From positions 1 to 33,042 of the forward strand of contig WNDP01000037.1 in the NCBI GenBank assembly GCA_009912575.1: 33,042 nt of DNA, written 5' to 3'. Below the pieces are notes generated by a model, which saw only the letters and a program-made list of their open reading frames with translations, was not told where the DNA came from and made no database searches. Position numbers and translations under genes: made by a program. Below are positions 13,645-16,950 of this stretch, piece after piece. This DNA comes from Acinetobacter bereziniae (GTDB taxonomy: Bacteria > Pseudomonadota > Gammaproteobacteria > Pseudomonadales > Moraxellaceae). Within the stretch, counting starts at the first letter, position 1. Each line of letters begins with the position of its first letter.

Positions 13645-14853
13645 ATGGATCATCAAATTAATGGTATTGCATTACCAAATGAGCAAGGATTCTTTGGCGA
13701 ATATGGTGGGCAATTTATCCCACCACATTTAAAGGACGCAATGGATGAAATTAATGTGGCTTATGAAGAAATTCGTCAAACTGCTGAATTTCAAAATGAG
13801 TTGGCAGATTTGTTTGCACATTACGTTGGTCGTCCGAGCCCTTTGTTTTATGCAAAACGTCTTTCAGAGCAATTGGGTGGTGCACAAATTTATTTAAAGC
13901 GTGAAGACTTAAACCATACAGGTGCACATAAAATTAATCATTGTTTAGGTGAAGCTTTGCTTGCCAAATATATGGGGAAAACTAAAGTAATTGCAGAAAC
14001 GGGTGCAGGTCAACATGGTGTTGCTTTGGCGACAGCTTGTGCGTTGGTTGGGATTCCATGTGAAATTCACATGGGACAAGTCGATATTGAAAAAGAACAT
14101 CCAAACGTCGTTAAAATGAAAATTTTGGGTGCAAAGTTGGTTTCAGTAACGCAAGGCACTGCTACATTGAAAGATGCGGTTGATAGCGCATTTGAAGAAT
14201 ATTTAAAAGACCCAAAAAACTATATTTATGCGATTGGTTCTGTGGTTGGACCGCATCCCTTCCCAAAAATGGTACGTGATTTTCAATCTATCATTGGCAA
14301 TGAAATTAAAGTTCAAGCACAAGATCGTTTTGGAACTCAACCTGATTATGTGGTTGCCTGTGTAGGTGGTGGTTCTAATGCTATTGGTGCATTTACAGCA
14401 TTTTTGAATGATGCGAATGTTCAGTTGGTTGGTGTAGAACCTGCCGGGCATGGTTTAGATACTCAACAGCATTCAGCAACATTGACATTGGGTAAACCGA
14501 GCCAAATTCATGGTATGGCATGTTATGTACTTGAAGATGAGCAGGGAGAGCCATTGCCTGTGCATTCGATTGCGTCAGGTTTAGATTACCCTGGTGTAGG
14601 GCCTCAACATAGCTTTTTGAAAGATTTAGGGCGTGTAGAATACTCAACAGTGACAGACCAAGAATGTTTAGATGCCTTTATGCAACTTTCTCGTGTAGAA
14701 GGAATTGTTCCTGCATTGGAAAGTTCACATGCTGTAGCTTGGGCAATTCGTGAAGCACCGAAATTAGCGAAAGAAATTAAAATTGTAGTTAATCTTTCTG
14801 GGCGTGGTGATAAAGATGCCGACTATGTTGCTGGAAAGTTAAATCTCAACTGA
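13645..14853 (+). CDS. trpB: tryptophan synthase beta subunit (stand-alone)
   Basis: A 402-residue PLP enzyme that condenses indole with serine. The catalytic features are intact: HTGAHKIN with the PLP lysine at 96, ETGAGQHG with Glu118, the phosphate-binding GGGSNAIG (241-248) and NLSGRGDKD near the C-terminus. The length is normal. There is no trpA, trpF or other trp gene next to it, so it is either a second beta subunit beside a canonical trpBA elsewhere or the only one, relocated. Its wording ([32 protein letters not shown]) differs from the usual enterobacterial TrpB, which fits a paralogue subgroup. A clear terminator follows. Confidence 0.9.
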
Positions 14854-14872
14854 TTTAAAATTAAACAACCTA

Positions 14873-14897
14873 AAACCTAGCTTCGGCTGGGTTTTTA
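14873..14897 (+). terminator. trpB terminator
   Basis: The stem AACCTAGC with GCTGGGTT (one G-T pair) closes on a TTCG tetraloop and is followed by a T-rich run. It separates trpB from the nuclease-toxin gene. Confidence 0.85.
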
Positions 14898-14922: not shown

Positions 14923-15375
14923 ATGAGCGAAAGCTCCAGCAGTTTTAGAACAATTAATATTACTATTTCCGAGGTAGATGAATCTGTTTTACATAATCGA
15001 GATGCGCAAAATTCAGGGCTTCCTAGTAAGTTTATATCTGAAGTGGATAGTATTTTTCCTGATAGATCTTTGTCAAAACCACTTACACGCCTAAGGGATT
15101 GGACTACTAGGAATAATAATCGGAAGCATTCCTTAGCAATCTGTAAGGCACAAGATAGTAGCTATAGTGAATCATGTGATCCAGAAGTGAGCTGTCAATG
15201 CGATGAATATCCATTTGCTACAACATATCAAGGTGGAGATGCATTAGAAAACCCAGGAGTCTCTGTCAGGAGAATCGAAGCGAGTGATAATAAAAGTGCG
15301 GGTGCTAGATTAGGTGTTTTCTATACTCAACAACGTATTTTGGATGATGATGAATTTTATATTAATGTTGAATAG
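14923..15375 (+). CDS. orphan NucA/NucB-type DNase toxin domain
   Basis: A 150-residue protein whose C-terminal half is a NucA/NucB deoxyribonuclease domain. Core motifs are CDEYPFATTYQGG (93-105), SVRRIEASDNKSAGARLG (114-131) and the closing FYINV. Bacillus NucB has the equivalents DRDEWPMA and SVEYISPADNRGAGSWVG. Asp94/Glu95 and Asp122/Asn123 are likely active-site residues. In polymorphic toxins (Rhs, CdiA and others) this domain is a common C-terminal warhead. Here no carrier, PAAR or signal peptide is present, and an in-frame TAA lies at 14905-14907, so the product starts at or near 14923. The ribosome binding site is poor. Residues 1-50 are low in structure and may be linker remains. 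The next gene is the probable immunity partner. Confidence 0.85.
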   Translation: MSESSSSFRTINITISEVDESVLHNRDAQNSGLPSKFISEVDSIFPDRSLSKPLTRLRDWTTRNNNRKHSLAICKAQDSSYSESCDPEVSCQCDEYPFATTYQGGDALENPGVSVRRIEASDNKSAGARLGVFYTQQRILDDDEFYINVE

Positions 15376-15393
15376 TACAAAGTAACATTAAAA

Positions 15394-15417
15394 GTTCAGC
15401 AGTTTACACTGTTAAAC
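15394..15417 (+). promoter_or_regulatory. hairpin between nuclease and partner gene
   Basis: GTTCAGCAGT (15394-15403) pairs with ACTGTTAAAC (15408-15417) around TTAC, with one mismatch and one G-T pair. TTTATCT follows. It may act as a weak attenuator or a transcript-stabilising element between the two genes. Confidence 0.4.
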
Positions 15418-15462
15418 TTTATCTAAAATAAATTTGACATGAAAGTAAGGTGGATAATGAAT

Positions 15463-16890
15463 ATGAAAAATAGTGACTATGTTGGAAAAATTTTTAGCAA
15501 ATTAGTAATGATAAGTAAAATAAAACCAAATTCTACTTTAGCTGAAGCAGTATTACTTGAAAATTGTTTAGATAGAAGATTATCTGAAAATGTGTATGCG
15601 AATCAAAATTATCCATCAGTAGCGTTATCCGCAATTTGTGGAAAAATGTTAAATATTCATCAAGATATTACTAGAATTGAACAATTTAAAAAAATTGAGT
15701 CTGTCCATTTTTATGGCGCATTACGCAATGGTAAAGATCCGTACAAGATAAAAATAAAAAGTGAATATGAAACAGGTATTCCTCAATACATCAAGATAGG
15801 AACAATAGGGAATACAGTCATAACAACCGAACAGTTTCAGCCATGGTTTGATGCAGCCTTTCTAAGTGTTAAAAAAGATAATGCGTTAACTGAAATAAAC
15901 AAAGGTAGTGGAGTGATTAAAGTAGGTGACGATTATAAAGAACAAGATATCATTTTAAAAAAAGACACGATCATTACCAATACAAAAAAGGCTTTGCTGA
16001 GACAAGCTGGCATTGAGTATGTACAGGTTTATAAAAATACACGATTCGCAATATTGTGTGTAGATTACGAGTTAGAACATTTCAATAAAAATTTTGAATT
16101 GGAATACATTAAAGATTGTATGATCAGTTGGGGATATCATTTTGAAGTGATAAAAATTAAGCCATCAAGATATGAGTCAAATAATTGTTCAATAGATGAT
16201 TTTGAAATTACAACTGATATTGAAACATATATTCAGAATATTAAAAAAGTTACAGAAGATTTTGATTATATCGTTGCATGCGGTCTGGCTGTAGATCAGC
16301 ATCTTATCCAATTAGGTCTATTTAGATCCATTAATGAGTTAAGCGTATTAACTGAACAAGGTTTAGTTCATCAAAAAAAATATTTGATTGGAAATTCTTT
16401 TAAGATGATGGTTGGCGGTTTAAGAAGTCCAATAAAAAAAGAAACGATTAAATATCTCAATGAAAAAGGTATTCCATTTTGCACAAGGACAAAAACTTAT
16501 GAGGATCGAGCTATCGTAAGTTATATGCCTGGTTATATTCTTGATATTATTATCAATATGCATATTTTTATAAAACCAACGATTCTCAGCCATCTTTATA
16601 ACAAACCTGTTCAACCTGAATGGAAAATTGGCGTTTTAAATCATGATTTTGACTATCAAGGAATTGCTGAAAGTCAGCATAAATTTTTTTGGGGGTGTGC
16701 GAGTGATGTGCATTATGGTAAAGATGGGGAAATGAATACGACGAAGATTCCAGAAATTAAAATAATCAATGTGGAAAATGAACGTCCTGATATGCTGAAT
16801 TTCTTTAAGGAGTGTAATTGTTTTATTCCAGTCTTAAATGATAGTCATCAATTAAAAGCAGGTGATTATTTTTATTACCTAGAAATTTGA
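15463..16890 (+). CDS. degenerate MoeA-fold protein, putative immunity partner
   Basis: A protein of about 475 residues with the layout of molybdopterin molybdotransferase MoeA. Numbering here is from the first possible ATG at 15439. RRLSENVYANQNYPS (46-60) matches the MoeA GRxLAxDVxA-P region. VGDDYKEQDIILKKDTIIT (162-180) matches RxxGEDIxxGxxLxxxGxxL, and ALLRQAGIEYVQVYKNTRFAIL (185-206) matches the strand before TGDEL. NCFIPVLNDSHQLKAGDYF (460-478) matches the C-terminal NCFIVL...VEVGEWV. Active-site motifs are lost: SAMDGYA is SAICGKM, TGDE is VDYE, GGVSVG is CGLAVD and LPGNP is MPGYI. It is therefore unlikely to make molybdenum cofactor. AAGGTGG lies 9 bases before the ATG at 15463; 15439 and 15457 are alternatives. 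ATA and AGA codons are frequent, unlike its neighbours. The position after a nuclease toxin suggests immunity (inference). Confidence 0.75.
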   Translation: MKNSDYVGKIFSKLVMISKIKPNSTLAEAVLLENCLDRRLSENVYANQNYPSVALSAICGKMLNIHQDITRIEQFKKIESVHFYGALRNGKDPYKIKIKSEYETGIPQYIKIGTIGNTVITTEQFQPWFDAAFLSVKKDNALTEINKGSGVIKVGDDYKEQDIILKKDTIITNTKKALLRQAGIEYVQVYKNTRFAILCVDYELEHFNKNFELEYIKDCMISWGYHFEVIKIKPSRYESNNCSIDDFEITTDIETYIQNIKKVTEDFDYIVACGLAVDQHLIQLGLFRSINELSVLTEQGLVHQKKYLIGNSFKMMVGGLRSPIKKETIKYLNEKGIPFCTRTKTYEDRAIVSYMPGYILDIIINMHIFIKPTILSHLYNKPVQPEWKIGVLNHDFDYQGIAESQHKFFWGCASDVHYGKDGEMNTTKIPEIKIINVENERPDMLNFFKECNCFIPVLNDSHQLKAGDYFYYLEI

Positions 16891-16921
16891 AAATTCATCA
16901 TGATTTACAGTTGTTGATCAT

Positions 16922-16950
16922 ATAGCCCTCCATATGGAGGGTTATATTTT
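16922..16950 (+). terminator. terminator after MoeA-like gene
   Basis: ATAGCCCTCC with GGAGGGTTAT (one G-T pair) forms a near-perfect palindrome around CATATG, followed by ATTTTTATAA on the plus strand. It closes the toxin-partner unit before the converging CBS gene. Confidence 0.8.

Follow-up and report, generated by a model that had tools for sequence, protein, structure and literature searches.

A MoeA-like protein as the predicted immunity partner of secreted NucA/NucB DNases in Acinetobacter

Why should a gene for a protein built like MoeA, an enzyme of molybdenum cofactor synthesis, lie directly behind a DNase gene? The question is raised by a locus in the window, that is, the whole stretch of 33,042 nucleotides analysed here (Acinetobacter bereziniae, contig WNDP01000037.1). 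The genus was taken as Acinetobacter on the ground that all 15 named relatives from a scan of species genomes belong to it. According to the original prediction, a NucA/NucB nuclease domain is followed on the same strand by a protein of MoeA architecture, the pair is bounded by terminators, and the molybdenum-cofactor enzyme fold has been reused as a nuclease inhibitor. The arrangement itself was confirmed, with PF14040 identifying the nuclease, MoeA_N and hhalign identifying its neighbour, a gap of 63-81 nt between the two, and terminator-like hairpins at 14872-14895 and 16920-16947. The features of the locus are:

13645..14853, + strand: trpB, the upstream neighbour (ORF; synteny)
14872..14895, + strand: terminator-like hairpin 3' of trpB (hairpin search)
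14923..15375, + strand: 5'-truncated secreted-type NucA/NucB DNase, nuclease domain only (Pfam PF14040; alignment with 8 full-length relatives)
15376..15456, + strand: intergenic gap 5' of the MoeA-like gene (sequence read by eye)
15457..16890, + strand: MoeA-like predicted immunity protein, 477 amino acids, in an ORF that opens at 15439 (Pfam; profile alignments)
16920..16947, + strand: terminator-like hairpin 3' of the pair (hairpin search)

The nuclease ORF starts 69 nt past the stop codon of trpB and ends 63 nt before position 15439 and 81 nt before position 15457. Three terminator-like hairpins were found in the region against 0.8 expected, one of them inside the MoeA-like gene. By synteny, the site 3' of trpB is also used in the loci L031, L032, L034 and L035. 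Most of the gap 15376..15456, compared by eye, recurs in A. guillouiae (L031) between two MoeA-like genes that stand in tandem, and for this reason it probably carries the promoter and ribosome-binding site of the MoeA-like gene itself. The slot before the same predicted immunity gene is occupied by a nuclease remnant in the window and by another such immunity gene in A. guillouiae.

The ORF at 14923-15375 (+, 150 amino acids) matches the Pfam family DNase_NucA_NucB (PF14040; E = 5.9e-13, 49.6 bits, cut-off 23.8) and contains the motifs CDEYPFATT and SDNKSAG; it has no match in NCBIfam. It had been regarded as an orphan, free-standing domain, a view contradicted by the alignment with its relatives, in which it appears as the 5'-truncated remnant of a secreted protein. 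About the first 242-245 residues of the 395-amino-acid relative in L035, which likewise sits behind trpB, are missing, and with them the export-signal-like start and an N-terminal domain of about 200 amino acids. No Shine-Dalgarno sequence is visible by eye before the ORF, the DNRRAG of the relatives is changed to DNKSAG, and the ORF may not be translated. Its frame is open, and it keeps H24, D94, E95 and N123, the equivalents of His53, Asp93, Glu94 and Asn117 of NucB; for D, E and N this equivalence comes from a weak alignment to the solved NucB (E = 0.69), and for the histidine from the relatives' alignment together with inference. The family profile matches the NucB structures at E = 1.2e-6, compared with 0.69 for the window sequence alone. 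The catalytic H, D, E and N are kept, by sequence comparison, in the window copy and 10 relatives, and mutation of any one of the four NucB residues kills its activity (PMC5758888).

The 8 intact relatives from Acinetobacter are 353-398 amino acids long and consist of a hydrophobic, export-signal-like start, an N-terminal domain of about 200 residues and then the nuclease. A hydrophobic start is found in all 10 full-length relatives (8 from Acinetobacter and 2 from Burkholderia), with a best 12-residue mean of 1.9-2.7, as judged by eye and by hydropathy score without a dedicated signal-peptide predictor. The N-terminal domain gave no Pfam match over the cut-off in the 4 relatives scanned, 2 of them among the 8 from Acinetobacter. 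The expectation of a warhead from a known polymorphic toxin did not hold, as the relatives are carrier-less and resemble a Sec-exported protein. An Rhs or CDI warhead was rejected as an identity for the window nuclease, since the relatives of 353-398 amino acids carry neither a repeat nor a filamentous carrier. Two other NucA/NucB domains end Rhs reading frames, L064 (genome G042) and L065 (genome G115), and SUKH-like proteins that score below the cut-off lie downstream, in G042 as the next gene and in G115 as the one after it. In G115 there is another Rhs frame just upstream of the Rhs-NucA/NucB frame.

The second ORF of the pair, 15439-16890 (+), encodes 483 amino acids from its first ATG, or 477 from 15457, the start used by close relatives. 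In Pfam it matches MoeA_N (E = 8.4e-7) with 29.2 bits, just below the cut-off of 30.8, and no other MoeA domain; NCBIfam gives partial MoeA matches alone, far below the cut-off. The claim of a full, four-domain MoeA architecture depends on profile-profile alignment and not on Pfam: hhalign aligns the family to canonical Acinetobacter MoeA over 377 columns (E = 5.1e-22), and over 376 columns when the Burkholderia members described below are added (E = 1.4e-29). Among solved chains, the family profile matches MoeA and gephyrin via their N-terminal half alone (best E = 9e-17).

To compare the active site, 28 MoeA-like proteins were aligned with 5 canonical ones, at an identity of about 20%. The position of Asp228, which is catalytic in E. 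coli MoeA (PMC9458074), was mapped by a hand count along the alignment of canonical MoeA to solved structures, and holds Asp in 1 of the 28 MoeA-like proteins. Neither lysine of PGKP, nor Arg147, nor Asp268, the last Asp of GGVSVGDYD, is kept in any of the 28; the Asp of SAVDGYA is kept in two, and of LPGNP the LPG part is mostly retained. With most catalytic residues gone, the MoeA-like protein appears to be a catalytically dead MoeA scaffold. The genome also has a canonical moeA at another location, and its neighbour there looks, by eye, like a moaC-mog fusion. No SUKH domain was found by Pfam in the window MoeA-like protein, and PADLOC has no match for the window proteins. ComJ/Nin had been said to be unrelated, in agreement with the lack of any ComJ-type match at E up to 1 in the window proteins (Pfam, NCBIfam).

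NucA/NucB domains occur in 11 of 176 Acinetobacter genomes; nine belong to the secreted type (the truncated copy of the window and the 8 full-length ones) and two are the Rhs tips. In these genomes, all nine secreted-type nuclease genes have a MoeA-like gene next downstream on the same strand. The MoeA-like family profile finds 24 strong copies in 21 of the 176 genomes, including a partial one in G095, and G100 additionally holds a fragment with stops. The search covered 349 genomes of the host's taxonomic family, and those outside the 176 have no strong copy. The next profile matches are far weaker (from E = 1e-13 on), and the 5 weakly matching genes inspected are canonical MoeA. Nine of the 24 copies are paired with a nuclease and 15 have no adjoining nuclease, G095 being counted among the latter solely because its genome has no PF14040 match; for the other 14, no nuclease remnant was found in the surroundings retrieved. 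Counted by genome, 9 have both genes, 12 the MoeA-like gene only, none the secreted-type nuclease only and 155 neither (Fisher p = 8e-10, kinship ignored). Homologues had been expected to lie beside NucA/NucB domains across genomes, which is true of the nucleases (9/9 paired); for 15 of the 24 MoeA-like copies the result is the one named beforehand as speaking against the idea, taken literally. Sorted by the flanking genes that they have in common, the 8 full-length pairs from Acinetobacter form 7 groups, with short flanks for L033 and L048, which suggests that nuclease and MoeA-like gene move as a unit. Distances between nucleases and between partners correlate (r = 0.93, 11 pairs), in line with an immunity role, but this may reflect shared descent.

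Lone MoeA-like copies are under purifying selection. In five comparisons of lone copies (L031a/L032, L044/L047, L045/L040, L047/L041 and L037/L104), dN/dS is about 0.16-0.27; it is 0.19 for the paired L039/L048 and 0.11 for the lone L037 against the paired L038. The MoeA-like gene of the window gives 0.19 with both L031b and L031a (dN 0.04 and dS 0.215 for the A. guillouiae counterpart), and trpB gives 0.03 between the window and L031. In A. guillouiae, the tandem pair of MoeA-like genes (L031 10864-13870) encodes proteins that are 54% identical. When the two genes are compared, the last 60-base bin shown is 97% identical against 43-85% in the other bins, and the last 150 bases are 92% identical. 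This 3' end resembles a converted one, as recombination between tandem immunity copies would produce, and together with the tandem arrangement it recalls immunity arrays; in EsaG arrays, tandem paralogues recombine (PMC9484751). Gut bacteria are documented to gain protection from SUKH immunity genes that stand alone (PMC12247911).

Five loci (L040, L041, L044, L045 and L047) carry lone MoeA-like genes of a second subfamily, with flanking genes common to the trpB-site loci; L044, L045 and L047 adjoin a different gene than the trpB-site loci. The trpB-site and second-subfamily loci are apparently two insertion sites close together. An identical lone MoeA-like protein, WP_163146732.1, is encoded on two small Acinetobacter plasmids (9 and 14 kb) that differ in replicon type (gene at L102 4258-5649 and L103 6034-7425); on L103 it is near a gene labelled Rhs.

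A search of the plasmid collection with the secreted nuclease matched 37 records, 30 of them from Streptomyces. Nuclease homologues were also found in Burkholderia stagnalis and B. cenocepacia (44% and 42% identical to that of L035), with a MoeA-like gene 78 nt and 30 nt downstream, respectively, whose products are 22% and 21% identical to that of the window. Both genera together thus provide 11 secreted-type nucleases, all paired with a MoeA-like gene; in the 10 full-length pairs the gap to the first in-frame start is 12-78 nt. A third MoeA-like protein, from B. arboris, has no nuclease in the 11 kb retrieved around it. The three full-length Burkholderia MoeA-like proteins have 680-691 amino acids, match MoeA_N at E = 1e-21 to 1e-26 and, in 2 of the 3 cases, MoeA_C over the cut-off. 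At the C-terminus all three carry an SMI1/KNR4 (SUKH-1) domain, matched at E = 5e-19 to 1e-20; SUKH is among the superfamilies listed as providing immunity to Tox-NucA toxins (PMC3482391). The SUKH part of one fusion (L101 6099-8174) matches the PADLOC candidate defence model PDC-M40A at E = 6e-54.

The Streptomyces homologues have another neighbour, so the nuclease family overall does not require a MoeA-like partner. In the 6 neighbourhoods inspected, the next gene encodes a DUF6924 protein in 5 and an unmatched protein in 1. The alignment also covers most of the nuclease N-terminal domain in 3 of the 6 and the nuclease part alone in the other 3, one of the latter being a short annotated gene beside a transposase. 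On the Streptomyces plasmids L106, L109, L110, L111 and L112, the NucA/NucB genes are followed by proteins of about 290 amino acids with a C-terminal DUF6924, which form a candidate immunity family. An even sample of 398 Pseudomonadota genomes was searched with the nuclease profile and PF14040 and matched in the host's own genome alone (0 of the 397 others), so the spread outside Acinetobacter rests on the three Burkholderia replicons and one relative on a viral contig. That relative, a MoeA-like protein of 29% identity, is encoded at L108 5001-6065, an IMG/VR contig classed as viral. As for a phage origin, the Burkholderia nuclease has no match among 50,697 phage records, and the alignment of Acinetobacter nucleases has none in viral contigs.

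Gene linkage, architecture, the loss of MoeA catalytic residues, the SUKH fusion and the purifying selection on lone copies point to a family that very probably pairs a secreted DNase with a cytosolic immunity protein of MoeA fold, often retained as orphan immunity. From these observations we infer binding, inhibition, compartment, target cell and delivery in the following scheme. When intact, the first gene would encode a protein exported by the Sec pathway, in which an N-terminal domain precedes a non-specific DNA endonuclease of the NucA/NucB type. The product of the second gene, a MoeA-fold protein without molybdate-insertion chemistry, would remain cytosolic and inhibit the nuclease by binding to its nuclease domain, at the active site or at an exosite. 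For a different DNase of the beta-beta-alpha-metal kind, the active site is covered by one immunity protein, and another has been modelled at an exosite (PMC13392607). The immunity would guard producer cells, and lone copies would guard non-producers. Since the window nuclease has no export part, the window copy would be an immunity gene retained beside a decaying (or cytosolic) nuclease remnant.

The proposed reuse of the MoeA fold as a NucA/NucB inhibitor is therefore supported by context, namely linkage in 9/9 Acinetobacter and 2/2 Burkholderia cases, the SUKH fusion and the eroded active site, but the Streptomyces homologues, which adjoin other genes, speak against it. So do the 15 of 24 Acinetobacter copies without an adjoining nuclease, the size of the MoeA-like protein, much larger than common nuclease inhibitors, and the below-cut-off scores of the SUKH-like proteins that follow the two Rhs tips. 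The asymmetry between the genes, with a nuclease never partnerless in two genera, a partner often nuclease-free and selection on lone copies, fits orphan immunity better than refutation. A wider reading, likely but held with less assurance, is that the MoeA scaffold has become a transferable module for DNase immunity, in which either the dead molybdopterin cleft or an opened dimer groove is remodelled so as to accommodate NucA/NucB. It would be used alone in Acinetobacter and joined to SUKH in Burkholderia, against a carrier-less secreted DNase whose Streptomyces relatives are partnered differently (DUF6924). In corynebacterial Glp, an opened dimer groove holds FtsZ (PMC11733289).

A working second MoeA, or one of the tungsten type, lying behind the nuclease by chance is extremely improbable; MoeA domain order and a mostly retained LPG would suit it, but it was rejected for the eroded active site and the canonical moeA of the same genome, and the 11 pairings out of 11 in two genera also oppose it. 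A co-oriented position beside all the secreted-type nucleases found in the two genera and a large multi-domain scaffold would equally be expected of an export or folding helper (chaperone) or a maturation factor for the secreted nuclease, rather than an inhibitor. We consider this improbable. Helpers are not expected to persist without a client, yet 12 genomes retain the MoeA-like gene without a NucA/NucB match and lone copies are under purifying selection; tandem copies and the Burkholderia fusion to a SUKH domain count against it as well. Nor does the window pair seem to be a purely decayed relic without present function, which has a small chance of being correct. The truncation, the change of DNRRAG to DNKSAG and the lack of a visible ribosome-binding site fit decay of the nuclease, but its frame is open with catalytic H, D, E and N in place, and the MoeA-like gene is intact and under purifying selection relative to its A. 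guillouiae counterpart.

Acinetobacter is naturally competent, and the pair could instead serve in competence or DNA processing, the nuclease processing environmental DNA and the MoeA-like protein guarding the cytosol, with no role in competition. B. subtilis NucA and Nin/ComJ have the same arrangement of an exported NucA-family nuclease and an adjoining inhibitor (PMC5758888, PMC3482391). The competence reading deserves some weight but is unlikely given the patchy occurrence (9/176 Acinetobacter genomes and 0/397 other sampled Pseudomonadota), the several neighbourhoods, the lone MoeA-like copies without nuclease and the lack of a ComJ match. It still makes the MoeA-like protein an inhibitor and differs from the immunity reading in biological purpose alone, so that the two overlap.

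The immunity reading places the pair within a familiar kind of system. Barnase and barstar have the same layout of a secreted nuclease and a cytosolic inhibitor, here predicted, and barstar is unrelated to the MoeA-like protein. The layout is shared by Anabaena NucA and NuiA, an inhibitor likewise unrelated to it (PMC5758888). The genes of the exported Bacillus nucleases NucA/NucB, members of the same Pfam family, likewise adjoin an inhibitor gene, that of Nin (ComJ); the nuclease described here has an extra N-terminal domain, and Nin is an unrelated, mostly-beta protein of 18 kDa, compared with a MoeA fold of roughly 480 amino acids (PMC3482391). In Tox-NucA polymorphic toxins, as here, a NucA-type DNase is followed by an immunity gene (Imm-SUKH, Imm36 or Imm-NTF2), and SUKH, found here in the Burkholderia fusion, and tandem and lone immunity genes are shared features (PMC3482391). 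The pairs described here differ in that the nuclease is stand-alone and exported, with no Rhs, filamentous-haemagglutinin or other known carrier, and in the MoeA fold of the predicted immunity protein; the terms 'MoeA' and 'molybd' are absent from the available text of that paper. Reuse of the MoeA architecture to bind another protein, predicted here, is known from gephyrin and from Glp, which likewise has an eroded active site (PMC11733289). The present family differs from both in its predicted partner, a nuclease, and in its patchy gene with several neighbourhoods, sometimes tandem copies and a SUKH fusion.

No description of MoeA-type immunity was found among the papers listed by searches of open-access literature, and the MoeA-like proteins are predicted to form a new immunity class within a known kind of system. 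If the reading is true, this class would be built from a core metabolic enzyme and would be a further repurposing of MoeA after gephyrin (synaptic scaffolding) and Glp (cell division); a paper on MoeA evolution, dealing with eukaryotes without nerves, leaves other uses of the scaffold open (PMC11733289). Stand-alone exported NucA/NucB nucleases with swapped neighbours might then serve Acinetobacter, Burkholderia and Streptomyces as bacteriocin-like weapons.
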